This document shows, one piece after another, positions 9,165-59,900 of a stretch of 64,000 bases of DNA. A model generated the notes under the pieces. It was not told the DNA's origin. It saw only the letters and a program-made list of their open reading frames with translations, and ran no database searches. The DNA is from Cokeromyces recurvatus (taxonomy: Eukaryota > Mucoromycota > Mucoromycetes > Mucorales > Mucoraceae): NCBI RefSeq assembly GCF_025118155.1, contig NW_026251414.1, positions 1-64,000 on the forward strand, in the 5' to 3' direction. Both the position numbers and the translations under genes were made by a program. The first letter of the stretch is position 1. Every line of letters starts with the position of its first letter.

Positions 9165-11303
9165 ATGTCTAATACAGAATCTACTCTACTTCCTGAATCT
9201 ATTGGGAAACGCGTAGATCCAGTTTATAGTAAAGTTTTACATGCGAGATTAAACGAACTATTGCATAGTCCCTCTGATAGGTAATATTATCAAAGCTTGT
9301 TCAATATTTATTAAATTGTGTTATTACAGTTTTCCAGGAACTCAACCTGTTAGCTTTGAATCAAAACATCTAATTGATATTGAACGTGAAGATTATTTTG
9401 TTTGTGAAAAGTCAGATGGTGTACGTTATTTGTTATTTTTTCTACATTCACCAAAAGGACCTGCTTCATTTCTAGTAAGCCAAAGACGAAGATGCAATGT
9501 GTGTATAATGTACTTATAATTACACAGTTTGGTAGAGATAAGTATTGGTATTATGTTCCTAATTTATTGTTTCCTGTAAGAGGTAGAGAAAATGAATATT
9601 TAAAAGATACTTTAATGGATGGCGAACTAGTGTTAGATATTGACGTAAATAAGGTAAAGTAGTTGCGTATATTTATGTAAATAGATATTCATGTAAAATG
9701 ATATTGTAGAAAACTTGGAGATACCTTATATTTGATTTAATGGTGATTAATGGTTCACCTGTCATTCAAAGATCATTCAATACGAGACTTGGTGTAAGTT
9801 TCTAAATATATTTCTATATTTGTTATATTTTACTTGAATTATATTTTAGATGCTACAACAAGATGTTATTCAGCCATTTGAATCAAGAATGAAATCAGTA
9901 TTAGATCCAACCAAGACACCTCCCTTTACGTAATTATCTCCCACTAGGATTATAAGTGGTAGCTATTTATTTATTTTCTATATTATAGTGTTGAGCTTAA
10001 GAAAATGGAAAGGTCTTATGGATTACATGTTGTATTCGATCAAATACCGAAACTAAAGCATAAATCGGATGGTATCATTTGGACACCTGTTAAATATCCA
10101 TACACGCCTGGCACCTGTGAAAAACTGTAATATTTATTGATATTGATACATAATTTTATCACTAACTCAATTATGATAGATTAAAATGGAAACCACCAGA
10201 ATTAAATACAGTCGATTTTAGAATAGCAGCTAGATGGAGTAAAGAACATAAGCCGATTTATACAATTGAAGTTTTATCGAATGGAGTGACATATAAATTT
10301 TATGATTATTTCCAACCAGAGCCTTCATTAGCTGCAGAGTAAGAATTGTTATTATATAATCAGGAGCTATTTTTATGAACGATTTATTTATTTAGATGGA
10401 GAAATCATTTACCAGATGGACGTATAGCTGAATTTAGGTATATTCAATATATAATAATATCTACATAGAAAATAAATATATGCATATATTATAGATATGA
10501 TCCTGAGTGTGAAATAACGATTGTTGAACCAGGATATGCGCCTACTATAAGAAAAGGCGGCTGGAGGTATGATGAAAGATAGAGTCTATCCTATGTTTAT
10601 TCACTTTTTTTTTGTTAGATTTGTAAGATTTAGAGATGATAAAAGTACAGCTAATGATGAAACAGTTGTAAAAAAGATACTAAATAGTATACGTGATGGA
10701 GTTACAAAAGAGCAATTATTATTATGTATGGATAGAGTTCGTGCAGCATGGAAAGCAAGAGAAAAGGGATTACCTATGCCATCATTTCCTAAAAGAACAT
10801 CAACAAGTAGTATATTATCTGATCAACATTCTACTTCAACAACAAGTACACCTGTTGTTAATGACTATTTTCATAACAGTTCATTAAGAAATAATTCAAT
10901 TTCAGAGGAGACAATAACAATCAAAAGAAAGGCATCCTCAGTTAAAATAGAAGAAGAAGAAGAAGAACGAAAGAAAGTGAAAACTGCTAGTGTCAACGAA
11001 ATACCCGTAATGAATAATATACCTCAGCCACCAAAAAAGAACTCATCATCTAGTATCCATAACTTATTAACCACCTCTGTTGAACCTTCCATACATCATC
11101 TATCGCGGCAATCACAGCCTGTTCATTTCATTAATTTCCATGCAGAGAATAGGCAAACAGCAATGGGAGATCATGTCTTAATTATTCGTAGTGAAACTAA
11201 TAGTGATCAGCAACACACTTTACGGACTGATAATATGCCACAACCAGAGTTACCGAAGAGGAAGAATAGTCAAAAATCAAAACTTGATTTTATATTAAAT
11301 TGA
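9165..11303 (+). CDS. CEG1: mRNA guanylyltransferase (capping enzyme GTase subunit)
   Basis: Transfers GMP from GTP to the 5' diphosphate end of nascent mRNA in the nucleus. Ten exons join in frame: 9165-9280, 9330-9474, 9528-9653, 9710-9793, 9850-9929, 9989-10126, 10180-10338, 10396-10437, 10495-10566, 10619-11303; 548 aa. Covalent nucleotidyltransferase motifs are visible in order: motif I EKSDGVR (KxDG, lysine at residue 66), motif III DGELV, motif IIIa RYLIFDLMVING, motif IV SDGIIWTP, motif V LLKWKPP, then the OB-fold part around RFVRFRDDK. The last ~170 residues are a low-complexity Ser/Lys-rich tail, longer than in yeast Ceg1, with a basic stretch after acidic EEEEE. No triphosphatase domain is fused, so a separate Cet1-type or other triphosphatase is expected. 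Intron 6 contains an ACTAAC branch point. Confidence 0.95.
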
Positions 11304-25733: not shown

Positions 25734-26241
25734 TTATTGAACAAGGACACTGTTAGAATGAGAATATCTATTATTACGTAACATAAAGTTTTGATGCTGC
25801 TGTGATGGTTGTTGCTGAGGAGGTATAACAGGAGTCATATTAGAAGGATTAATTATAGGAATAGCTCGTCGTTTTGTAGGACTATTATTTGGTGACATTG
25901 AAGGAGAAGTACGAGGAGAAGTATGAGGAGAATATAGACGTTGATGAATACGATCTCGATGTTCTAAAACCTCTGAAGAACACTGAACAGGACAAAATTC
26001 AAAATCATCATAAAAGTTCCGAGCAAGTTCAAGTTGTGCTTGAATTTGTTCAAGTCGATTAAGAGATGACACTGAAGATGAAGAAGTAGTAGTTGGAGTA
26101 GTATTTACAGGAGAAACTAATATAACAAGTTTTTAATTTATATTTCTTCAAGGATTAAACCCTATAACACACACACTTACTTATATTTTGAGGATAGAAA
26201 TGATGGGGATTATAATACATATAGTTATTAGCAGGACTCAT
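25734..26241 (-). CDS. Small hypothetical protein, Ser/Pro/Gln-rich
   Basis: Two exons (26181-26241 and 25734-26116) join in frame to 147 aa starting MSPANNYMYYNPHHF. A short predicted helix (RLEQIQAQLELARNFYDD) is followed by FEFCPVQCSSEVLEHRDR. An SP-rich segment comes next (SPHTSPRTSPSMSPNNSP), a good candidate for proline-directed kinase sites, and a Gln/Pro-rich tail. No known domain was recognised. The clean splice and non-random composition support a real gene; function unknown. Confidence 0.6.
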
Positions 26242-26967
26242 ATTATGCAAGAATAAAGAAGAAGAAGAATAATAAAAAACAAAAAATAATAAAAAAAAAA
26301 AATAAAGTTGTATTTTTATATACTCGAGCTTTAAGCTTACTTTAAAGTTAAACCAATAAAAAATGTAAAACCAAAAATATAAAAGCAGAAATATACACAC
26401 ACACACATAAATAATAAATGCTAATTTTCAACCTCCACTTCTTACTGCTGCTTATCGACTACTACTACTAAAAATCATATTCACTTGGTAAGACTATATT
26501 CTATAGCAAAGGGAAATAAAATAAAATAATAATAATAAAAATGAAAAAATAAAAAATCAGGCGATAATTTCTTAGTTTATCACTTTTTTTCTTTTCAATA
26601 TGATATGTGTGTGTGTGTTTGTGTGCTTGTATCGAAATCTTTCTCCTTTTTTTTTTTATTATGATCCTTTTTAAAGAAGAAATAGCAATCTGTTGTTTTA
26701 TAAATATTTATTATCTATTGGTAAATATCTAGAAACACAAGTCAAAACTTCTCAAATCAATCAACAGTATTTCCTTTTCTTTTCTTTTCTTTTCTTTTTT
26801 TCTTCTGGGTAAACTATCTGCCAATTAGATTTTATGGATCATTATCCGAAAGTATGACTCGCATTCTTTTTAAAATATCATAACCACATACACCACACTA
26901 CGCTTTAAATTTTGAGATCAGCGCAAATAAAAAATTATTTCATGGCATATCATTATTCTTATTATTG
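26242..26967. other. Intergenic spacer
   Basis: AT-rich, with a CA repeat near 26397 and a TTTTC repeat near 26770. No gene seen. It ends at the left terminal repeat of the Fanzor element. Confidence 0.4.
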
Positions 26968-27078
26968 CAGTTTTTACACTTCAAATTCAGACAATGTTAG
27001 TTTTTTTTTCTGGACGAATCAAAATTAATGTTCAAACGTCTAGCTTACATTTTTTGGAAAATGTAAAAACGGAAATCA
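26968..27078 (+). repeat. Left terminal inverted repeat of Fanzor element
   Basis: Reads cagtttttacacttcaaat and runs inwards through gctagacg-type sequence (complement of the right end) to cggaaatca. It pairs with 29626-29748. Confidence 0.85.
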
Positions 27079-27112
27079 AACAAAGGAACTCGAGAAATTA
27101 AATTGAGACAAA

Positions 27113-28819
27113 ATGTTGGATGAACTAAAATGCAACTGTAGGCTAACAGGTCAGCTATTTTTTTTTGTCTCTTACATGGATGTTACTTGCGAACAACCTT
27201 AAGAAGGTTTAGCTAGCGCATTTATAAAAAAAAATTCCATTTTTTGGTGCTGATTTAACTGTACAATGGGAAACTGATTTACTACTGAGATAATATGGAG
27301 ATTTTTTTTTCGATTTGGGAGTGGAATTCTTAAAGATAGTCAGCTTCTCTAACACTTGTACCACTATATCACTACACGATCTAAGAATGGAACTCAAAAT
27401 TCATTTGTATATAACTTTTACTTGGCCAACAAAGTTTCTATTGTTTAATGAAAGCGGAAGCAACTCTGCTCAATTCTGAAAAAAAAAGGGGGGGATCAAA
27501 ATGAGCAGCGTATATAACAACCTATACATAGGAAAAACCTTGTTCTTTTTTTTTTTTTTTTTTTAGAAAAGTAGCACTGTATACCACTACAAACATTAAC
27601 ATTTTTTTTTATCAAAAGGAGGTGAAGATATCCATTATAAAACATATAGTATTCGAACATGTCTTAGATGCGGTGCTTTCTCATGAGGTACGACCAGCTA
27701 TGGATGCCAATATTGCTTTTTCATTAAATGAAGAAGCCCAAGGCAACATCCGTGCCCTCTTAAAACCATTGATTTGGGAAATTAGAAATCGATTACCTTC
27801 GTTTCCGATGACAAAAGAAACTCTCAATAAAGCACCTTTTGGTATAATACCAGCATTAAGGTATATTCTGGTTAAATACGAAGCCTTAATTGAGGAAAAC
27901 CCACAAACACAGCCTGGTTTACTAGAACAATCAGAGCAGACAAATCCACCAAATAGAAAAAGACTAAAAAAAAAGAAGGTTAAGAAGAATAAAAAGACAA
28001 GCAAAGACAATAAAAAGAAGTTTGTTCCACTCAGGCTCTTTAGTTTATTTCCAAAATCAAGTTTTCGTTGGCGTTTTATAAAGATCGATAGCTGAAATTT
28101 AGGTGGCATATTTCCTGGGGCTTTTTTGGAGAAACAAGATGAAGAGACTCCTTTCCAACAGATACAAAGATGTTTCTTTGCCTACTTTGATTTTTCGAAA
28201 TTAAACATTAACAGGCAAATGTTAACATTGTTTACGAGAAATAAGCATACTAATTTTGAATTTGAATAGTCTTGAAGACTTAATAGATTTGTCTCATCGA
28301 AAAGGAAAGATGTTTTTTTTTAAATAGCATGTATACAGACGGATATACATGCAGGATATCATTCTGTAGAAAAACACAGGCAACATCGCCTAGTATAAGC
28401 AAGACTTCTTTGGAACTGCACAATTTTACCAGTGAAGAAATAAATAGATATTTTAGACCTTGTGCTGTAGACCCAAACAGAAAAGATGCTTTTGTCTCTT
28501 ATCATGAGAATACAGACATAAGGCGTTTGTCTTCAGCCGAATACTATGACATGAGTGGAAATGTAAATCGACAAAAAATGGAAAAAGAGCATAAAAGAAG
28601 ATCCAATGTAGAGACTGTTGAAACACAAATTCCTTCATCGAAAACCACATTCATAGATCATTATAAAATGTACATCACTTATATGCTACAGCATATGGAA
28701 GTTTTGTTCGATTTTTACAGCTTTGAAACTGCCAGAATTTACTGGCTCAGTTATGTCGGTTCTCAGTGCGCAGTTGAAAATGCTATCAACATTCTTATTA
28801 ACGGCTCAAAAAAATATTA

Positions 28820-28857
<38 letters not shown>

Positions 28858-29556
28858 AGAGGAAAGACGAAAAGAAATAAGAGAAAAAGAAGAAAGACAG
28901 AGGCCAAGTATGACAGAGACCCTCCTGATACTCATCCCAATCGAGGAAAGAATGCCACTAGGTAGTATACATATTCATGAATACTTTGTATTCTTGTTAC
29001 TCATAACTTTTTTTTTTTTTTTTTTGAAAGAGAACACTGGGAGAAGTTTGAGGAGAGCGATAGCCGCAAGATGCCGTTAGTTGTATTTGGCAATGGTCTT
29101 AAAAACAAAAGCCAGGTAAGATTTAAAGGGCTAAAGCATGGTATATCAGAAAAGATATATAGGCAGCTAAAAATACAAGAAAAGCTTGGGGGGATTATTG
29201 CTTCTAGACATAGACGAATACAAAACATCCAAGGTAGAAAAATACATACATGTGAATATAATAAGCGTATTAATACAATATATTACACCTGTATTGTATA
29301 GACATGCAATTCCTGTCTTGAAACCAAGCTTCAAAACCTCATATATGGAAAGGGAGGTGATGCACATAGAATACATCAAATATTCATCTGCAAAAGTTGC
29401 TATATTTATTGGAATCGAGATGTGTTAGCTGCAAAGAACATGTTAACCATTGCTACATCAATCTGAAGCGGAAATGGTCGTCCCAATGTCTTCAAAAGAC
29501 AAAGCACCACCTCTAATGTAGTTGTCATATCCCATCTCGGTGAGGTGTTGACTTAA
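27113..29556 (+). pseudogene. Fanzor (TnpB-like RuvC RNA-guided nuclease homolog), interrupted
   Basis: Fanzors are eukaryotic relatives of TnpB that cut DNA guided by an omega RNA made from the element's 3' end. The main readable body starts about 27622; upstream scraps in the element (from the ATG at 27113) have stops. N-terminal part: VLDAVLSHEVRPAMD, LIWEIRNRLPSFPMT, a Lys-rich linker, RLFSLFPKSSFRWRFIKID. RuvC-I is CAVDPNRKDAF, then IRRLSSAEYYDMSGN (Asp codon 28470). RuvC-II is LLLLDIDEYKTSK (Glu codon 29216). Zinc ribbon: CNSC (29305, 29314) and CKSC (29389, 29398). RuvC-III is YWNRDVLAAKNM (Asp codon 29418). Supported introns: 28962-29030 and 29234-29301, the latter restoring KTSK|TCNSC; 28221-28269 is likely. 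Damage: TGA at 28093 and 29464, and slips at a T run (28313-28321), an A run (about 28820-28855) and a G run (29188-29193). Confidence 0.85.
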
Positions 29557-29625
29557 AGATCTTACAGGTAAAGCCAAATTTAAATTTTGACCTTGAACTT
29601 GTCTCAACTAATTTATCCCATGGTC

Positions 29626-29748
29626 TGATTTCCGTTTTTACATTTTCCAAAAAAAAAAAAAAAAAAAGGTAAGCTAGACGTCTGAAAATTAATTTTGATT
29701 CATCCAGAAAAAAAACTAACATTGTGTGGATCTGAAGTGTAAAAACTG
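29626..29748 (-). repeat. Right terminal inverted repeat of Fanzor element
   Basis: Its complement begins cagtttttacacttcagat and matches the left repeat. It contains an A run (29650-29667) longer than the matching T run of the left copy. In known TnpB/Fanzor systems the guide RNA is transcribed from the 3' end of the nuclease gene into the right end; here that would fall within about 29440-29748. Confidence 0.85.
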
Positions 29749-32489
29749 TATTTCGGCACAACAATAACGATGGAAGCATTTTTAAGACACTTGAAAAAGT
29801 ATGATTGCATGCTTCAGGAATTATATTGATGAGTATTTTATTATCCAAAAGTTTTTTTTTTTCAACAAAGGACTAAAACTATTCAATTGGATTAAACTCG
29901 GGCAAATAAATACACTTATAGCTACAAATTGTAATATACTGCTTAACACTATTTGCTGTATAGATTGGGCCGTTATACTTTAAAACAGAATACCCATTAA
30001 AGCCCTTAAACTTTTCTAATATGTCCAAGTTATTTGTGACCAAGTTGAGGTGATGGCTATTGGCTGTGATCCTTCCCCCCCTTTTTTTTTTGTTTTTTTC
30101 TTAGTATAAATCTAACCATATTATAAACTATATGTTATTACTGCTGTCTCTAGGAACAGTGTATGCACATATAAAATCAAATATAATATCATAAAAGAGT
30201 AAATTCATAATGATTAGATCATCGAATAACTTTAAGTAATTTTTTTTCTATATATATACATGTATATGTAATGATTTTTCAATTATAAAATCAAATTTTG
30301 ACTAAAACAGCTATTCATTTTTACTGAAATAAGAGAAATAATTTTAATTAACTTACGGCCAAACTTGGGCTATACAAAGCATAAACAACGCATCAACATA
30401 TAGCTATGGCATAATATAATAGAAAGCATTGAAGAAAAAAAATTATACAAGTAATACTAAGAATATAGAGAGATGCTAACACATATTCATAAATATATAT
30501 AAATATAAATATATACATATATATTATAAAAACAAAAACAAAGAATGAGCACCTATACACTTTAATAGAAAATCATGGAAAAACGTCTTTGTTTGTATCA
30601 GGAATTGATCTGACTATATTATTTTCAAATGAAATAGAGACTAATTAAAAGAAACTTTGTAATAGATTAAAGAAGTATACAAATTTAGGAAGGAGCAAAA
30701 ATAGATTTAGCCGAAATAAAACTACTAGTAGTTTTTAGACATATTTACCTATAGAAATCTAAATTTCCCATTAGGAAAAAAAAAAACTTATTTCCGAAAT
30801 ACTGATATTATTGTTTCTGACGAGAGAATGCAGAGAAGCTGATTACAAACAGTTTGTATATCATGAATGAATGTCTTTCATGGCATTGCAATCACGTTTC
30901 CACATCATCTTGGCATGTTGTATACCTTGGTAGCAGAAAAAACCTCTAAATGAAACGTTTGATTCATCAAAAGACAGTATTTATTTTAAAGGAAGCATAA
31001 CATAGACATGTGTATTCAACATAGGATGATAGATTGATAGTTTTTACTGTCAGTATGTTTAAGAAAATATAGTCTATTTATTGTTATTATTATTGCTGCT
31101 TTATTCACTTTTATAGTTTTTTTTTATCATGGCATTTAGATTTTGTAAGAATATAATATTATTTAATAGTTAATTTTCTAATCTGCTGTGGTATTTCGCC
31201 ACTACCATAAGCAGCTGTGAACATATTTGTCCTTCCAGGATTGACCCTATATGGAGAAAATTGATCTACTTTTTGTATGTTTATCGATTGATTCAGATAT
31301 CATTTTATATATCAAATTCTTGGTTTTTATCTAGAGTTGATAGAATATGAAGCTTTGTTAGCAATAACAGCATCTGCAACAAACCTGTCTGTTCGAATTA
31401 GGCTTTGGAAAAGAATTTTTTCTTTTCTTTTCTTTTTTTTCTTTAAGAATTCATCCTATTTAAAATTATTAAATTATATAAATGCTCTTCTAATAAAAAG
31501 TTTATCTCTGTATAAAATCGTATCCATTAAAATTAAAGACTTTGTAAAACATTTCTTTTTTATATTTTCTTCTACATACATCTTTGGAAATGGTATTTTA
31601 GCAAAAGCTGATAAAGTATTAAGGCTGCTGATTTCTTACATAATTATCCATACTAACCAAGTGAAATTAATCATATAACGCAAAAAGAAAAGGGAGTAGT
31701 AGTAGTAGTAGTAACTTAGACGGCATATGTTAAAGGAAACCAATAGGAAACCAATAATGAAAGTACACCATGTATCAAAGTGTATGCATAACTGTTACTT
31801 CTAAGAATTATTTAGTGTCAAGCTGGTAAAAGACATTATAAGTAAAACAAGTTATTTAGATGGATTCAAAAAAAAAAAAGCTAGAATTGATTAACACAGA
31901 TGGCTATGCAAAAAAAGGTTGATTTAAGATAGTCTTAGTTTTAATCAATCCGTTTTGTCTATCCAAAAATAGTATATACTCTTTTTATCTCTTTTCTTTT
32001 TTACCCTGTGTCTCTAATAAGAGTTTCAGTGTCTTTTCTCCGTGTATGGATTATTTACTGATCTACAATATGTCTCATACTCTTTGAGCTTGATTACTTT
32101 CGCCATGGTAAATTTTCTCCTGAAATTCCTCCCCTTCTCTTGGTACTAACTTGATCAAATGCTTATGCAGTCATTAATCTAGCATTTGAAGTTAAAGTTT
32201 TCTATTCCTTTTCTTCTTCTTCTTTATCTTTTGCCCTATTCTTTTTTATTTTCTTTGTTTTTCCCTTTTTGATCCGATCCGGGCAACACAAAAGAAGCTC
32301 ATCAAAAGAAACCATTTTACTAAATCGGAATATTAAAACAGCTGGTCTTTAAAACATTTTCCAATCATCTTTTTTTAGATTAAACATGCTGTATGACCAA
32401 GAATAAGTAAATCATATATTAGCCAGTCACTTTTTTTTTTTTTTTTTTTTTTTTTAATTATTTTCATCTTTGACAAACAGTAACTAAAT

Positions 32490-32538
<49 letters not shown>

Positions 32539-32621
32539 TAAATCTCTTTCCTTTATAGATTTACTGAAAAGATCTATAGATACAGTCAGTAAAAAAAAAA
32601 AAAAGGAGGAAGGTGAGAACA
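29749..32621. other. Long intergenic region upstream of THR1
   Basis: Mostly AT-rich with no recognised gene. About 31161-31250 resembles 43090-43190 (same-strand similarity around cataagcagctgtg / catgagcagctgcg). About 32045-32185 is a diverged copy of 36685-36820. Two T runs sit at 32431-32453 and 32494-32535 just before THR1. A 113-codon frame at 31337-31678 looks like chance AT-rich translation. Confidence 0.4.
32494..32535 (+). promoter_or_regulatory. Poly(dT) tract upstream of THR1-like gene
   Basis: About 42 T on the coding strand, ending about 86 bp before the ATG at 32622, with another 23-T run 40 bp further upstream. The spacing is nearly the same as upstream of the CEG1-like gene. 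Confidence 0.45.
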
Positions 32622-33784
32622 ATGACTATGCTCAACTATAACGAACCTAGAAAATTTCGCATTAAATCACCATGTTCAACAGCTAATATCGGTCCTGGTT
32701 TTGATGTCTTGGGTATTTCCCTATCATTATACTTAACAATTGATGTTGAAATACTACCTCCTAGCGATAAAACACCTTCCTTTGTTATGACTTATTCAGG
32801 AGAAGGAGCGAAAGATGTTCCTCTAACGGCCGAAAAGAACCTAATCACTAAGACTGCATTATATGTTCTTGCTGCTAACGGCATTCATACTTTACCTCAA
32901 CCTCTCAAAATCCATGTAGATAATCCTATCCCCCTGGGTCGTGGTTTAGGTTCTTCTGGTGCTGCTGTAGTGGGTGGTGTCCTGTTAGGTAACGCCCTTG
33001 GTCAGTTAAATTTAGATCGTGATAGACTCCTCGATTACTGTTTAATGATCGAAAGACATCCTGATAATGTGGCAGCTGCCTTGATGGGTGGTTTTGTTGC
33101 CTCTTATTTGCGTGAGTTAAGTCCTGAACAGATGAAAAATGTACCTGCATCCGAAACTTCTCTTTTAGATATCGCCGTTACTCAAAAGTCTGTTCCTCAA
33201 CCTCCTGTAGGTATTGGACATTATGTTAGATTAGGTTGGAATCCAGATATTAAATGTATCGCTATTGTGCCTCAATTTGAAGTCGCTACGGCAAAGGCAA
33301 GAGCTGTGTTACCTACACAATATGAAAGAAAGGATATGGTAAGGAATTTCAAATTATTTACTTTATTAACTAACTAACTAACTAACTATAAAAAAAAATG
33401 CCTGATTTTATTATTATTATTATTTTCCTTTTATAGATTTTCAACTTCCAAAGATTAGCTGTGTTAACAACTGCATTAAGTCAAGTTCCACCTAATCCTG
33501 AATTGATTTATAATGCAATGCAAGACAAAGTTCATCAACCTTATCGAAAGACATTGATTCCAGGACTTCCAGAGATCTTGTCGACAATTACTTATCAAAA
33601 ATATGATGGACTTTTAGGTATTTGTCTTTCTGGTGCAGGTCCTACTATTTTAGCTTTAGCTACTAAAAATTACGATGAAATTGCCAAGGCAGCTATTGCA
33701 TTATTCAAGCAACATGGAAACTTTGAATGCTTTTATAAAGTTTTAGATGTAGTTACAGATGGTTCTACTTGTGTTGATTTATAA
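32622..33784 (+). CDS. THR1: Homoserine kinase
   Basis: Phosphorylates L-homoserine with ATP, the penultimate step of threonine biosynthesis. Two exons (32622-33338 and 33437-33784) join in frame to 354 aa, the usual size for fungal Thr1. GHMP-kinase motifs: N-terminal SPCSTANIGPGFDVLG, the ATP loop PLGRGLGSSGAAVVGG (about residue 107), HPDNVAAALMGG, and the C-terminal GHMP motif LGICLSGAGPTILAL. The Met at 32622 was chosen over an upstream in-frame GTG because the leader is too short to matter and the family starts about here. Nothing odd was seen. Confidence 0.96.
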
Positions 33785-47401: not shown

Positions 47402-50400
47402 TTATTTCTTACTTATAGCTGTTGTTGTATCACTAGTTGATGCTAGTCTACTATGATGATGATCACTGCTTAACTTTGCATTATTATTACATTGTGGGGT
47501 ATCAGAATCACTTTTAGAAGTCTTTAAGGCAATTACAGATCGACTCATCTTTTTATTCCCATCAGACCGTCTTGCTTTTACTAAATGCCCTATACCAGGT
47601 AATAAGAGTCCTTGTTGAGTTGTAGATCTTTGTTCATTCTTAGGTTCTTCTGTTGGTTTTTTCGTTGCTGTCACATGCTGTTGAGGTTTTGCTATCTTAT
47701 TATCACTGTTATTATGAATTGACTTTTTCCATCGTCGCCATCCTTCAAAATCAATTAATGCTTGCATACATCCCCATTCAATAATCTTTTTCTCCAGCCA
47801 TTCAAGACTTACAGGCTTTGTTAAGAAATCATTACATCCTGCCGCTAAAGCAGCATGTCGATCGGATTCTAGTGAGGATGCTGTTAAAGCAACAATAATG
47901 ACAGGTGATCGAAATACGGATATTTTATAATCTTCTTCTTCTTCATGAGAGCTTTCTAAACTTTCTTCTGAACCTCGTTGTTGACGAAAGGAGGTAGGTA
48001 AGACACCAATTTTTTGTTCTTTTTCAATAGAACGAATCATTTTGGTTGCTTCAATACCATCCATGACTGGAAGTTGAATATCCATCTATAATAGTATAAA
48101 AGTTTAAAAAAAAAAAAGAAAGAAAGAAAACTTGAATTATTGTTATTCTATTTACTAATATTAAATGAAATCCACCTATTTTCCATTTATCCACTGCTTC
48201 TTTTCCATTACTTGCAACAGAAAACTTGATTTGATGCTTCTTCATCCAAGTAGATAAAATGGCTTGGTTAATAATGTTATCTATATATGTGTATATGTAT
48301 ATGATTAATATTCCTCTGCAAATATATAAATATATACTTTTCTCTCTCTCTCTCTCTTTTTCTTTTTCTTTCTCTTTCTCTTTCTCTTTTTTTCTTTCTA
48401 TTATACCTTCTACAATCAAAACATTGATAGGCGGACTGATGACATCTGTAAAAGGTGTTCCCTTTACCTTCTTTTTCTTTTTATTTAGTTTAAAATTGGT
48501 CATCATTTTTGATATAGTTTTCTTTTTCGGTGCTACTGGTATCTCATCCATAGTGTTGGTGATTGAAGGTTTATTATCAACTGCTTCAGTCGTTTGTAGT
48601 CCAGTTTCGACTACCTTTTCAGCTATCGTCTTCTCTATATTGGTTACCGTTTCTTCCGTCATAACTGCTGTGTTACTAGACAAAGCATTCATTAACGAAG
48701 AATTATTTCCCGAATTTGTGATTACAAAATAGTCCTGATCATGTTGTTGTGATGATCGTCTTCGAACACCAAAATAATGACTATTTCCCTGTTCTCTGCG
48801 TATAAAGTGTTGCTCTGGTGCTGGTGCTGGTGGTGATCCACGGGGACTATTTTGAATGATTTGATTTAGAATAGGTGGAATGGGACTTAATGGTGAGGTC
48901 GCAATGGCACAAAAATGAGGCTGAACGACTGCATGATGCCAAACTGTATGAAGTGCAGTCAAGAATCGTCGAGGACCCGCTGGTTTAGGCACAACGACAA
49001 CACGTGGCATACTAAAAGGATGTGGAGATGAAGATGATAAGACAAAACATTGAATCAGATCTCGAACAGCTTTATAATGGGATAATGAACTAAAATAAAT
49101 AATGGCAGAGGAACCATGATGAAAAAAATTATGGGGTGAAGATTTCTTATGACGACGACCATGATGAACAGCTTGTTGAAGGACATAGGCTGAAGCAGGG
49201 GGTTGAGAACGAAATTCAGAAAGTTTACGTTCAAGTGTGGGGAGATGATCGTCAATAAGAATAAAAGCAGGCGGGATAGCATGTATTTGTTCTTCTTCAA
49301 TCAATGGAGTTGGAACAGTTGGAGGAATAGGACCTGCTGTTCGTAGTAGTGGATTAGATGATTCTGCATGACTTTTAGGCTCTTTCTTTAATGACTGTTT
49401 TTGGTCTGTAATAGGTACATGACTAATATCCGTATTCCAACTAGCTAAACAGCTTGTTAAATGCTTGGCAAAGATAGATTTTTCTGTCGCATGTAAGACC
49501 ATCTTTAATCCTTTTAAGCATTTTATAAACTCTCCTAGCTCTTTTAGACTGGGTTCATTAGAAAATTGAATATTTGAATAATATTGTTTTAATAAAGTCG
49601 TACTCTTATTATTGTCATCTAATTCAAATATTGTCCTATTATCTTCATTCTGGGCGCCATAATCCAATTCAACTGAAAATTCAAATTCAGTTTTCTCTTC
49701 ATTGATTTGTTGTATAGATGAAGTAGCATGAATATAGGATATCAATTCTGCTGTCAAATTAGCATTGGGCAAAAGCGAAGGATCATCCGTATTTGAAGCA
49801 GAGCTTGTGTGAGTAATATAGAATGTAATTTTACACTTCTTTTCTCTCTTTGTTCTATTTGGTGTTACATTCAAGCCGACTTCAATGCAAGTACTTGGTG
49901 CGCAGCATTCAAGCACATTACGTAAATGCTAATGAAAAAGTAAAAGTAAAAATAAAAATAAAATAAATACAGTTAAATCATTGTAATCTTATTTGATTAC
50001 ACTATACACATATTACATTATATTATATATTACATTTAACAAAGCATGTCGAATGGCTCCTTCATCACCTATAACTGACGTATGATGTAAACTATTATCA
50101 TAGTGGTAAATAACAAACTTGACATTCAACTTGGATGCTACACCAGCTAAAGCATCACCAACATTTTGAAGTAATTCACCAATATCAAATTCATTCAGTT
50201 TTAATTCAGGTAATGATGGTTGTATATTATTGTTTTGTCGACTCTTTGACCATGCTTGAGCTGTTAAAGCGGATAGTAGATGCAAATGAGAACTAATATG
50301 ACATACTTGTCGAATCATGACACCAATTGCTGAAATACTAGCAATAGGAACTGCTAAAGAGCAAGCATTTAGTAATTCATGTGTTGTATTAGTACCTGAA

Positions 50401-51242
50401 GATAAAATAGAAGTAGGAGAAAATTGTTCAAGGGTTGTGATGACCATTAATGCTACATCTTGTATTTCCTGTGACACAGTTGTCAAAAAGGCAAGTTGGT
50501 GTTCATGAAATGCTTCAGTACACTGATCTACAAAGTATTGAAGTCTAGCTTGTTCATTGACTAAAGTATGATTGAGTCTAACCGTTTTAGTTTGATTAGC
50601 GATAAGAAGACGATTAGCAAATCTAAACAAAAGAGTAGTCAAGATAGATAAAGCGATAAGTAAGATACGTCCTGGTTGAATTAAAGAAGAGAATCGTACA
50701 GGTGTAGGAAGAGGTAAAGAAGTTGCAAGATAAAGATTAGTAGTAGCCATGATAAGGGCACTTGCTGTAGCCCAGTTTAAATATAAATGAAGTGGTGTTG
50801 ATTTATTATTTAAAATAACAATCATGAATAACCACCAGAAAGTGTAACCAGGTAAGATAATATAAGGCAACCAATCCATCCAATCATCAACAAGCCAAGG
50901 TAAAGAATAAATGATAATAATAAATTCAATAAGTGACTCGAATAAGCAAAGAAAATCAGCGATATAAATCATACGACGAATTTCTATCAGTATTTCATCT
51001 TGCTCCGCCGATAAATGAAGTTGAGACAATTGAATTTTATATGAATTTGTGATATCATTTTCACTATGATCCGATGAAGATGGTGAAATACAACTAAAAC
51101 TTGAATCTTGATGAAGTAAGTCAGAGGTTGTCCAGGCAGAATGAAGAAAACCTAATCTAGGCCTATTTAGTTGTTTTTGTTTTATTGAGGTATTATTTTC
51201 ACATTGTACATTGAATTCAGATTTCGACTTTAGATCTACCAT
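47402..51242 (-). CDS. Ssk1/Mcs4-type response regulator with membrane and degenerate histidine-kinase regions
   Basis: Expected output regulator of a phosphorelay feeding the Hog1/Sty1 stress MAPK cascade. Four exons (50034-51242, 48407-49928, 48156-48280, 47402-48085) join in frame to 1179 aa. Order: residues about 80-215 contain roughly four hydrophobic membrane segments (FLCLFESLIEFIIII, YIILPGYTFWWLFMIVIL, LIMATTNLYLATSLPL, ILLIALSILTTLLF). A kinase-like helical region follows with no catalytic His (FLTTVSQEIQDVALMV), then an N-box-like remnant (IGDEGAIRHALLNHLRNVLE), a low-complexity middle, and the receiver at about 910-1100: INVLIVEDNIINQAIL, LILMDIQLPVMDG (phospho-Asp), LTASS, FLTKPVSLEWLE. 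The VEDN junction is restored by splicing. Receiver and linker match Ssk1/Mcs4. Confidence 0.85.
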
Positions 51243-51686
51243 TTTTATAACAATGATCTTTCCTTCCTCTTTTCTTCAAGTAAAGAAAGAGTAAATGCTA
51301 TTAATTTTAATATTTCTTTCTTTCTTTTTTTTTTTTCTTTTTTTTTTTATAAGAAAAAAAGATAATGAAATATTATTTAAAATGTGCAATAAAGAAGGAG
51401 AGAAATAAACATTTTTAAAAAAGGGGGGTTGAAATATTTACAATCTGTTACACCTCGATTTTTTTTATATAAACATACATAATTTACAAGTACAAGTCAA
51501 ATAGAAGCTTTTCATTGGTTCAGTTAATAACTAAAAGACATTTGACTTGATAAATAATAAAGGCTTATTATTATTATCATTAAAGAAAAGCAAGATTTCA
51601 CACACAACAAAAAAAAAAAGGAAAAAAAAGAAACTGAATTTTTTTATTCTCCACACATTATATACCCCCCCGCACGTATAGTATGC

Positions 51687-53994: not shown

Positions 53995-54180
53995 TGTATA
54001 GATTAATAATAGATCAACTAATTAAAAAAAAAAAAAAAAAAAAAAAATAGGAAGGATGATTAGTTTTTTATTTTTTATTAATTGAAAAAAAAAAAAAATA
54101 AGTCACCGCTACTGTCTGCATTTTTTCTTTTAAGTGGCTGAGTCAAAATACGAATACAAAAAGCAAACTTATTCTTCAAC
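53995..54180. promoter_or_regulatory. Divergent promoter, BUD20 / DDX20-like
   Basis: A 186-bp interval between two divergent start codons. It holds an A run at about 54021-54047 (T on the BUD20 strand) and another at 54085-54099. A shared bidirectional promoter for two RNA/ribosome biology genes is inferred from the geometry. Confidence 0.5.
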
Positions 54181-55824
54181 ATGAAACGTTCTCATGATGT
54201 TGCCATTGATGAAAAAGTAGAGTTCAGTGCACTCCTTCAGAATAAACAGCTTTTACAGGGTCTTAAACGAGCTGGATATGATCAACCTTCTCCTGTTCAA
54301 CTTAAAGCAATACCTTTAGGTCGACTTGGTGTTGATTTGATTGCACAAGCTAAATCGGGTACGGGTAAAACGGTTGTCTTTGGTGTTATTACGCTTGAAG
54401 CTATCCGATCTCAAGTGACGTCTACTCAAGCACTCATTGTGGCTCCTACTCGTGAAATTGCTATTCAAATCCGAGATGTCATTCGTCTCTTGGCTGTTGA
54501 TTATAAACCACCTGTAAGTTGTCATGCCTTTATTGGAGGTCTATCTATGCAAGCTGATTTACACCATTTATCTAAATGTCAAATTGTAGTCGGCACTCCA
54601 GGAAGACTGATGGCTTTAATTGCAACAAAGAAATTTATCACATCAGAACTGCGTTTGATCGTTTTGGATGAAGCAGACAAACTTATGTCTGACACCTTCT
54701 TCCCGCAAGTTGAGTATATTATTTCGAATGTCAAGGGTAAAAAGACTTTGCAAACAGTTGCCTTTTCTGCCACATTTCATGATTCTCTTTTACAGACATT
54801 ATCTGGATTTATGAAAGAACCCCAAATTGTAAAGTTGACAGATGGTATCCCTACTTTAGCTGGTAAATATATATGGAGAAGCATATAATTTCTATAAATG
54901 AATACTAATAATACTTTTATTTTATTTTTTTTGCAAATAAAAGAGGTTCAACAATACTATTTAAAGATATTAGTCGAAAACACATCAAAATTGGCAATCT
55001 ACAAATCAAAATTTGAAGCTCTTGAAAAACTGTTGAGTCAAGTTCCCTTTTATCAATGTATGATTTTTGTGAATAGTGTTCCGAGATCAATGGAGCTTAC
55101 AGCTTGGCTAAATGAAATGGGATGGAAGTCTGGACTTATTCATGCAGGTCTAACACAAGAAAAACGATTGACTGTAATGGAAAATATGAGGGATTTCAAA
55201 ATTCGTATTCTTGTCTGTAGTGACCTGGTAAGTTAATATATATAAAGGAGGAAGTCATGATATTGAACTAATATATATCAACTTCTAGATTGCTCGTGGA
55301 ATTGATATTGATAAAGTGAATTTAGTTATCAATGTGGATTTTCCCTGGGAGATTGAGACTTATTTACATCGAGTGGGACGTACAGGTCGATTTGGTACTT
55401 CAGGTATAGCAGTTAATTTGATTGGACCTGAGGATGAAGCATTTTTGGAGCAATTACTGAAAAAGGGCATTACTGTTCATCCATTACCTGGTAAGTAGGA
55501 GTTGGAGGAAATCTTTTTCATGATTCATATTTAACCCGTAAAATTTTTTTTACAGATAAAGTTACTCAAAATAAAGAATATATCAAGCAATTGACAAAAG
55601 AAGAACAAGAAGTACTCATAAAGCATCAATCACAAGTCATTGAGACTAATAAACCAGTTCCAATCCGTATCAATAAAAAAGCAAAGGCAAAGACACATGT
55701 TTCAAAGAAACAGACGACATTAGCTAAAAAACCGTCATTAGAAAAGTCTTGGTTGCCAAAACCAACCATACAACAGCCGTTACAGTATCAACAAGATTTT
55801 ATACCCCCTGATTTATTCTTTTAA
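54181..55824 (+). CDS. DEAD-box RNA helicase, DDX20/Gemin3-like
   Basis: Four exons (54181-54862, 54944-55227, 55289-55490, 55556-55824) join in frame to 478 aa. The complete DEAD-box motif set is present: Q motif PSPVQLKAIPLG, Walker A AKSGTGKT, PTREIAIQ, TPGRL, LDEADKL, SATF, IFVNSV, ARGIDIDK and HRVGRTGR. The N-terminal VEFSALL...LLQGLKRAGYDQPSPVQLKAIP and the DLIAQAKSGTGK variant point to DDX20 (Gemin3), the helicase of the SMN complex that assembles spliceosomal snRNPs. The C-terminal tail is Lys-rich and much shorter than animal Gemin3. A general DEAD-box identity is certain; the Gemin3 orthology is likely but inferred from recognition. Confidence 0.85.
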
Positions 55825-56128: not shown

Positions 56129-56977
56129 CTACATGGGCGAATAGGTAGTGGGTCTTGTTGTTAAATAATTAAAAGGAAGGTTAAAATTTGGATATGTGTT
56201 AAAGATAGGTTCAGAAAGTCTTCGAAATAGCTATTTAGAATAATAGATTAGTTTAAATGTTAAAACAAACAAACAAAAAAAGGTCTTTTCCTTATTATTT
56301 ACCTCAGTTGAATGGCCTAATTTATGATCGATAACTGAGTGAGAGTATCGACGATTATCAATGAATCCTGCTGGTTCTTCTTCTTCATTCAAAGACCAAA
56401 GAGTAGGTGAAGTAGCTGGGTGAAATGGCATCTTTTGTTGATTATTCATGATAGGGGTATATTCATACATGCATTGAGGCTTATCATGATCAATAGGCAT
56501 CATGAGCAATAAAGAATTTTCTTCTTCTCCAGCTGTAGTAGAAGAGGCATCACTATGATAGAAGGAAGGATAAGATAAAGTTCGACTGATAGGTGTAGCT
56601 GATAAAATAGAACAATCAGAGCAAGCACAGGGTGAAAGTAAAGGTGAAGAAGTGTATTGCATTGAATATGGATTTGATAATAGTTCTGGAGATTGTCTTT
56701 TCGATTTTTTATTCTTTTCTTTAGCTCTACGATTTTGAAACCAGACTTGAACACCACGAGGAGACATGGCAAGCTTTTGAGCAAGCCAACGACGCATAGG
56801 AGCACTAGGCTTTGGATTATCCAAAAATGTCTTTTCCAACACTTTAAATTGAGCACGCGATGTTCTTCTACGATGTTTTACTTCGAATGGATTATAAAAA
56901 TTAGTTTTAAATTCTTGTTCATTCTCTTTAACATCATTTATTTCGCTTTTTTGACTTGATATTAAATCTGAAATCAT
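56129..56977 (-). CDS. Homeodomain transcription factor
   Basis: Two exons (56303-56977 and 56129-56230) join in frame to 258 aa. The homeodomain spans about residues 34-92 (RRRTSRAQFKVLEKTF ... MRRWLAQKLAMSPRGVQVWFQNRRAKEK), with the recognition-helix WFQNRRAK intact and no TALE-type extra loop. This is the Phx1/Pho2/Yox1-like fungal class. The remainder is Ser/Pro-rich, with SPLLSPCACSDCSIL and a Met-rich section. Splicing replaces a read-through tail with LFRRLSEPIFNTYPNF and ends YSPM. Targets unknown. Confidence 0.85.
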
Positions 56978-59900
56978 TGTTGGTATATATATATATATAA
57001 AAATATATAATATATGTTATATATATATATATATATATGTATATATAATTAAATTTGCATAAATAAAATAAAATAAATGCGTATATTTATAACAAAAGAA
57101 TAAGAAGTGACTTTATATGCGTGTTTGATAGGTTTTAAATTATAATTGGAATGATGGAGTTAAATAAAAATGAGGAGACAAACATGAACAGGAGGAAAAA
57201 AAAATAAAATAAAAAAAAAAAAAAAAAAAAAAAAAATAGGGGATAATTTATTCAATTTTATATAAATAAAGTTTAATAAGGGGAAAAGGGAAAAAGTCAG
57301 AGTTTGTATATTAGGAGATATACATCAAACAGTAATAACACACAACAGACATTTAAGCTTCAAATCATAACATGCAAATAAATCTATGATTGTACATATG
57401 CATGTCATCTTATTCTTGCATAGAATGAAGAAAGAAACTCTGTATAATGAGAGTAAGATATGTGTTAAACAGGTATAAATCGCGTATCATCATAATGATC
57501 GTAGGCAGTGTAGATCTTTATTCATACTTGTAGAATGTATATAAACTATTATATTTTAAAGAAGAAGAAGCAATATATATATACATATATGGAATTAAAT
57601 ATCAAATGTATTTATTAATAATTTTATCCGCTTTGTTTTTTTTATTATTATTTTATTAGCAATATGTATATCACTAGTACTGATTGTAAAAGGGAAAAAA
57701 AATAAGGATAGGAAGGAGAAAGAGGAGGAAGTAAGGAAATCGAATTTCATACGTGAAATGACGTTATTTATTTAACCATCAAGTAGAAAAATGGCAAAGT
57801 TTATAATAGTTACTATATTTGTCTACATGCTATTTTATATTTTAGTTTTACTATAAATATATACATACAGTTAAATTAACAAATGCAGATACATTTTTTA
57901 TTATTATTATCATTATTAATAGAGGAGTCAAAAGTAGAGATAAAATTTAACATATAATAATAGTAATATAGGGAAATAGGAAGAAACATACAATTCAGGG
58001 GTGTGGCATTAAAGGAAATATGACGTGTATTGATCTACATGAATTCCTTTCAAATTATAATAGATTTTCCAGAAATTATACATATTGTTAATCAAAGAAC
58101 TTATGCCAAAAAAAAAATCATGTATTTTTTCTTTATATATAAATATAAAGGTTCGTTTGCAAACTCTGCAGACGTAACATTCCAAAGTCATGTTCGTGAA
58201 ACATCTACTTTAGTAATTATCATGTTAATATAAAATTGTTGTATTCTACTAAAGGCTCAATGAACGAATATTTGAAAATGAAATGAAGTTCTAATTATAC
58301 TCTCTATATATACTTTTATAAGATAGATGAAAAAACTTCAATTATCATTTTAGTTGTAATTTCTCTTTTGTACAAAGAACTTCATTATATAAACATCTAG
58401 TTAATGCTATATGTAAAAATAACTGTGAGAGAATAAAGCTTCAAAAAATTTTTTCTGCAAAAGCAATAGAAGGGCAACTTATTACTGATTCTTTCTATTC
58501 CATATTCTCTATATTCCTCTTTCTCTTGGTCCAACTTTTAGAGTCTTCTCTGTCGTACTTTGCTTTATTACTGAGTTGTATCGAATTAGATTGCATTCAC
58601 TTCAATGTACAAATATCATTATAACCTAAAAAAGATTTTAATGATAGTAGTAATAATTGCTTATATAGTGTATAATAGATACCTGCTTCATCGTAATGAC
58701 ATGAATTGTAACTATCTAATTGAATATAAGTTTTATTTTGACCTATGAATCCACCCATTATCATTTTTCTTATTTTCGTCTTATTCTTAATATACAACTA
58801 GATTTATACATAAAATATGGCATTCTTTTTTTTTTTTCTCATTTTGCCATTAATGTTTGATATCGCCTTTTCATCACTTTCACCCTTCCTCCATCTATGC
58901 AATTTGCTTTACACCTTCTAAACCTTGTTTTCATTTCCTTTTTTATATATCCTTCTAAACCTCAAATCTGACGGCTTGTCTTGCATACTTGTGTTGACTC
59001 TTCTTCTCCTTTTATCTCACTTGATATTGTTGAATATATTCTTTATACTCTATAAACGATCTCGTCTTCACATTTGGGCTTTCGTCTTTCATAGTGTTCC
59101 ATTCACTACTGCTTCCATTTTATCTATTCTAGTCACACATAAAAAAATGCATACACACCACGAATCTTTTATCTCTTCCGGCATTCTTCATACTCCTTCA
59201 CCCTACTTATTTCTTATGGAATAGCTCCCTAGTCATCTTCAACTCTTCCTCTGTTCTTTGAATTGGATGCGGATATATGCTATTTTTTATGCTTACCATG
59301 GTAATGCGATAAACGCTTTAGAGAATATGCAACTTGATTATTTTCTGATTCTATATCTTCAATAAACAAACTGGTGAAGTCCATAATAATACATACTGTA
59401 GAAATATAAAGTAGAATAATAGGCATGTACATTCATTGTAAGACTTATAATAAGTTCTATCCGCCTATTATTACGAAATATCTATAGCCTATTAAATTAA
59501 ATGACCCGGATGGCCAGAAAGTGGATTATATATTCAAACATGGTTAACATTCTAGTAACAGAAAGCGAATGTTTAGATAAGCATTTTTATAATAACTGAA
59601 ATCGGACCTAAAACGGTATGTTTAATAGTATAAGATTCAACACAAATTCAGGTTCATATCATTAATAATGTTAGCTATGAGTCGGCTAAGGAGCAAAGCT
59701 ATAACACCCTTACCAAATTATAATCTGCGTCAAATCCGTTCCAAGTTTGGGTAACTCACAACATACCAGGAATCTCAAAATTTATTTTATAAAACTTTAT
59801 GAACTTGAATATCAATCTATCGCAATATTCATCCTTTGGAATTATGTAAAAAGTCCCAAATAACTCGAAAAAAAAAGCATCAACTAGAACACAAACTCAC

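Follow-up and report, generated by a model that had tools for sequence, protein, structure and literature searches.

We find that positions 26968-29748 of the window, by which we mean the whole 64,000-nucleotide stretch of Cokeromyces recurvatus DNA that was analysed, very probably hold a defective, internally deleted member of a multi-copy, transposase-less family of Tc1/mariner-type elements in which a gene for Fanzor1, a eukaryotic RNA-guided nuclease, is the sole cargo found. Both termini of this copy begin with CAGTTTTTAC, at 26968 and, on the opposite strand, at 29748, and each extends over about 120 bp (Table 1). The inverted ends pair in three blocks (41, 54 and 37 nt; complementarity 92-93%), and a two-sequence comparison aligned them with gaps over 114/126 nt at 83% identity (E 5e-37), which bears out an earlier claim that they exceed 100 bp. 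The copy lacks a perfect TA duplication because its own left flank reads TG, the right one being TA. By its position, the exon fragment upstream of RuvC-I is probably part of the REC region.

Table 1. Features of the window copy and its immediate flanks.
Feature	Positions	Strand	Evidence
Left flank dinucleotide TG (TA in most siblings)	26966..26967	.	Sequence; TA at 20/23 readable 5'-side family ends
Left terminal inverted repeat, located 5' of Fanzor	26968..27086	+	End alignment; genome matches
5' region common with siblings, closing at a T run that is the site of the internal deletion	27087..27561	+	
Fanzor exon fragment upstream of RuvC-I, ended by the in-frame stop at 28093-28095	27622..28092	+	
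Fanzor exon with RuvC-I (VDPNRKD)	28329..28877	+	SpuFz1 matches
Exon region running up to RuvC-II (DEYKTSK, within 29186-29228), with an internal frame shift at a G run	29071..29228	+	
Last Fanzor exon, with zinc ribbon and RuvC-III (WNRDVLAAKNM)	29302..29463	+	PF07282 score; alignment
Right terminal inverted repeat, located 3' of Fanzor; its A run exceeds that on the left	29618..29748	-	
Right flank TA target dinucleotide	29749..29750	.	

The gene between the ends carries VDPNRKD, DEYKTSK, CxxC...CxxC and WNRDVLAAKNM, that is RuvC-I, RuvC-II, zinc ribbon and RuvC-III. The original prediction had described this order correctly; however, the motifs do not lie in one reading frame in the window copy. 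The RuvC-I exon (28329-28877) alone matched the solved Spizellomyces punctatus Fanzor SpuFz1 (8gkh) at E 0.008, the corresponding exon of a relative (L052) did so at E 2.3e-5, and a profile of this exon made from the window copy and four relatives reached E 5.4e-10. In this comparison VDPNRKD aligns with DPNKRD of SpuFz1, and the D ... E ... D catalytic residues of the split RuvC follow in order. The same five-member profile matched the RuvC-I region of Parasitella parasitica Fanzor1 (PpFz1; 9cf0) more weakly, at E 0.0096; this protein is described as having a RuvC insertion domain and a target-adjacent motif (TAM) of ATN (PMC11423790). The last exon matched PF07282, the TnpB/Cas12f zinc ribbon, at E 2.9e-5 with 24.6 bits, 1.7 under the cut-off of 26.3, which another family member (L043) exceeds with 40.9 bits. 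The L052 exon with DEYKTSK had no solved-structure match at E 1. A Fanzor had been proposed from the motifs, and the profile matches agree with that proposal; we classify the gene as Fanzor1-like, an assignment that rests on the SpuFz1 and PpFz1 matches.

The element belongs to a dispersed family in a genome of 28.05 Mb in 64 contigs. Its left end has at least 40 genomic matches (40 scored of 106 candidates), and a 24-base core of the ends, with up to 3 mismatches allowed, was found 69 times as against 0 for the reversed pattern used as a control. When end matches and the partner ends seen in inspected loci were merged, at least 86 distinct sites resulted, among which 17 pairs of ends face inward at less than 8 kb. 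Fanzor sequence lies inside all 17 pairs, as detected by mapped matches in 16 and, for the pair on C20, by exon matches within L032, and 20 of the 52 unpaired sites have a Fanzor match within 6 kb inward. Neither of the two adverse outcomes named with the original prediction, the want of any Fanzor/TnpB match and ends that fail to bracket the gene at other loci, was seen. The RuvC-I exon of the window copy has at least 139 genomic matches (150 scored of 212 candidates), 24 of which, the window included, are stop-free over at least 160 residues by our own count, and family members diverge to 33-60% identity in this exon. PF07282 has 70 matches, 60 of them over the cut-off. Clustering of the RuvC-I and PF07282 matches at 2.5 kb yields about 141 Fanzor loci, a rough figure because matching was exon-wise, only the best candidates were scored and weak matches are included.

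The end pairs C5:347932-349844 and C1:1147958-1152160 each enclose two Fanzor remnants in opposite orientation; from this orientation both of their ends would be of the 3' type, and fused or tail-to-tail elements are possible. Also, the ends at C21:284247-285900 recur with the same flanks at C43:159995-161642, as do those at C18:85363 and C27:313645, which reflects either segmental duplication or redundancy in the assembly.

Ends reading CAGT are characteristic of mariner elements, and CAGT is the terminus of this family. Moreover, TA stands directly outside 45/63 readable family ends, at a background of 0.104 (the dinucleotide frequency in the window), and on both sides of several paired elements; TA duplications are a mariner hallmark (PMC3627910). 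DDE_3 transposase domains are frequent in the genome (at least 184 matches, 150 scored of 403 candidates) and DDE_1 has one match. Among the 150 DDE_3 matches listed of 184, none lies within any of the 17 end pairs, and no transposase gene with the ends of this family was found. On C2, one of the listed DDE_3 matches lies 5.8 kb inward from an unpaired end; it was considered as an autonomous partner and rejected, since a match to the family 3' region (C2:401393) comes before it and the DDE_3 match is therefore taken to lie outside that element. Thus, the proposal of a transposase-less carrier with Fanzor as its only cargo agrees with the TA target, the CAGT terminus and the 17 pairs free of any listed DDE_3 match, provided that the Tc1/mariner label is read as a statement about termini and target only. 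Among the same 150 of 184, several groups of DDE_3 matches score identically and have frames of 450-489 aa without stops, and these are probably young multi-copy elements. No guide RNA came to light: folds of the terminal ~85 nt of 5 copies were not clearly above shuffled sequences (z -0.46 to 2.47), and an Rfam search of 26000-31000 returned one match, at E 0.94, far below its gathering score.

At least part of the family has moved recently. L043:433-3808 and L037:6068-9480 are 3.4-kb elements with TA on both sides and unrelated flanks, and they align in two blocks, at 99.7% and 98.3% identity; near-identity at unrelated sites indicates recent movement. The pair are the best-preserved copies examined, but a frame that L043 keeps open is interrupted by a stop in L037, so even here a full protein is only putative as judged from the reading frames. 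At RuvC-I both Fanzor genes read VDPGRK instead of VDPNRK. On a longer time scale the protein has been constrained: between the RuvC-I exons of L031 and L052, pS is 0.86 (saturated) and pN 0.26, and we take the combination of saturated pS with this pN as evidence that the protein has long been under purifying selection. For the window copy against L031, dN/dS is 0.56, closer to neutral. In addition, L034 shares ends at 83-84% identity with elements on C9 and C12 and does not align with them in the adjacent 5' sequence. The ends have thus been kept and the neighbouring sequence has not, which suggests that something recognises the ends, be it a trans-acting transposase, the RNA machinery of Fanzor or the two together.

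The flanks of the two ends appear to differ. In the first 43 oriented ends, (A/T)TA preceded the element in 16/16 TA-bearing 5' flanks and TAG followed it in 8/12 3' flanks. This asymmetry was spotted by inspection and is mostly post hoc, and held-out ends were then gathered. The 3'-side TAG pattern was not recovered there (2/13, background 0.137, p 0.55) and is rejected. A(A/T)TA was found in the held-out set at 3/4 5' ends vs 2/13 3' ends (p 0.053), the set being small, and pooling of all TA-bearing ends gives AATA or ATTA at 15/20 5' vs 3/25 3' ends (Fisher 3e-5), again mostly post hoc. TA itself is more frequent at 5' ends (20/23) than at 3' ends (25/40, leaving 15/40 3' ends without it) in the pooled data (p 0.047); a loss of TA at 3' ends was not reproduced, with TA in 12/24 of the first set and 13/16 of the held-out set. 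In the account of the SpuFz1 element Spu-1, CA stands as a conserved dinucleotide before the 5' inverted repeat, and CATA serves as the TAM (Saito et al. 2023; PMC10432273). By analogy with this requirement for CATA, A(A/T)TA on the 5' side is predicted, as a tentative lead, to be the TAM of this Fanzor1 group.

The two sets of ends were composed as follows. The first set left out C45:1001757, C4:615788 (a 3' end), C2:404767, C45:1004657, C56:381267, C56:595295, C9:301894 and C1:1152160 as degenerate or without an anchor, C43:161642, C43:159995 and C27:313645 as duplicates, and seven unoriented ends; of the seven, C7:333622 could later be oriented and entered the held-out set, and C64:437287 was oriented and proved degenerate. 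The held-out set left out L080, L081, L082, L089, L098, L099 and L103 as degenerate or ambiguous and L084-L087 for unknown orientation. It is partly non-blind, as C7:333622 had been visible earlier in unoriented form and the 3' ends of L035, L039 and L042 came from loci already at hand, though uninspected.

It would be tempting to go further and to regard A(A/T)TA at the 5' flank as the Fanzor's own TAM, with insertion choice and nuclease targeting coupled, as in IS605/TnpB, within a Tc1/mariner-like element, the ends being near-constant and RuvC-I diverged; on balance we think this unlikely. Distinctly unlikely, in our judgement, is that the family spreads mainly through cuts made by Fanzor and copying during their repair, A(A/T)TA on the 5' side marking the TAM of Fanzor and a transposase rarely acting. 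The pooled AATA/ATTA contrast, the CA and CATA of SpuFz1 elements (PMC10432273) and the L034 comparison with C9 and C12 are all consistent with such spread; however, the companion TAG pattern failed in the held-out ends, that set is small, and transposase action is expected to leave TA on both sides.

Bao and Jurka (2013; PMC3627910) describe MuDR-type Fanzor1 elements with 9-bp duplications in Rhizopus, Phycomyces and Mucor, and their ROr-4, PBl-3 and MCi-4 are like the present family in having inverted ends and Fanzor1 cargo and, as described, no transposase. Ends of more than 100 bp around such cargo would suit a MuDR-type carrier here too, but by eye the paired siblings show TA and no 9-bp repeat in their flanks, and TA and CAGT mark the ends of the family at large, so that we hold this assignment to be very unlikely.

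The preferred reading, a decayed member of a Tc1/mariner-type family, is further specified by the lesions of the window copy. Four siblings, L031, L045, L032 and L040, are 93-94% identical to it over the shared columns of 27250-28820 and carry, at about window position 27561, 1218, 1236, 839 and 832 extra bases, respectively, which the window copy lacks. This missing 0.83-1.24 kb includes an N-terminal exon, and what remains is not a full-length Fanzor1 with its N-terminal region. In three of the four siblings (L031, L032 and L045) the extra stretch encodes CKSC...GH...C, a CKSC-x4-H-type motif that we presume to be zinc-knuckle-like; the N-terminal CxxC...H...C motif is missing from the window copy because of the internal deletion. 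A similar CxxC...H...C motif was observed in N-terminal Fanzor frames of L052 (reverse complement 1206-1604) and L043:1238-1966, the latter frame having no Pfam match better than E 0.13.

Furthermore, the stop at codon 28093-28095 is absent at that position from all four siblings, the reading frame changes around the G run between the exon that precedes RuvC-II and the DEYKTSK segment, and the final exon ends early at 29464-29466, with a stop that L040 has and L032, L045 and L034 do not. The siblings are damaged as well: L032 and L040 are without most of the RuvC-I exon, L031 is without the 3' part, and the RuvC-I exon of L045 carries a stop. The original prediction had seen here a complete Fanzor transposon with its whole architecture; an intact, active element, for which the presence of both ends and of all catalytic motifs in order might speak, is close to untenable, as the alignment with the siblings, with its deletion, unshared in-frame stop, frame shift before RuvC-II and early final stop common to one sibling only, refutes it unless an assembly error spans about 1.2 kb. 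The window copy is a pseudogene with an internal deletion.

We infer that a resident transposase of the Tc1/mariner type, encoded elsewhere, moves these elements in trans. In the better-preserved copies, the Fanzor, guided by an RNA that extends from the element's 3' end into the adjacent flank, would probably cut the vacated or uninserted site, and repair from the element-bearing copy would then restore the element, a role assigned by analogy with the proposal for TnpB. Cutting of element-free sites would favour retention, as discussed for SpuFz1 (PMC10432273). The window copy is unable to make a full protein and persists at most as a transposable pair of ends.

Elements of related make-up are already published, namely Fanzor1-only ones with mariner-like TA ends (PMC3627910), repeat-bounded Fanzor1 families that lack a transposase (PMC10432273) and an inverted-repeat element of a virus with Fanzor1 alone (PMC10711439). 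The window copy is a decayed further example of this known kind. Spu-1 of Spizellomyces punctatus, as described in PMC10432273, is alike in placing Fanzor1 between inverted repeats, in its many copies, partial and Fanzor-less ones included, in the want of a transposase between the repeats and in the conservation of bases ahead of the 5' repeat. It differs in that its repeats are of 30 nt vs ~120 bp here, its TAM is CATA, whereas A(A/T)TA is only predicted here, its gene is a single ORF vs apparently several exons, and its guide RNA was shown, none having been detected here. PUl-4, reported as a non-autonomous Mariner Fanzor1 element (PMC3627910), shares Fanzor1 as sole content, TA duplications and mariner-like ends; ends of that type match confirmed Mariner elements in the same account, whereas no autonomous partner was found here among the DDE_3 matches listed. 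An element of Spodoptera frugiperda ascovirus 1a is likewise described as non-autonomous, with inverted repeats and encoding just Fanzor1, and a guide RNA was shown for it (PMC10711439), none being detected here; unlike the present family, it has TTAN duplications and 13-bp ends (PMC3627910).

Elsewhere in the window, Pfam matches mark ordinary host genes, namely an mRNA capping enzyme C-terminal domain (10551-11303), a GHMP kinase (32580-33377), a DEAD-box helicase (54142-54888) and a homeodomain protein (56231-57016). On the minus strand at 47402-51275, frames resemble by eye a histidine kinase and a response-regulator receiver; the two longer ones had no Pfam match at E 0.001.

Taken by itself, the single locus in the window is ordinary. 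The family as a whole offers many independent insertions, two of them near-identical and recent and several decayed, in a small genome, and the use of a Fanzor to its transposon therefore becomes testable. The family also yields a predicted target-adjacent motif for a Fanzor1 group that is so far uncharacterised.
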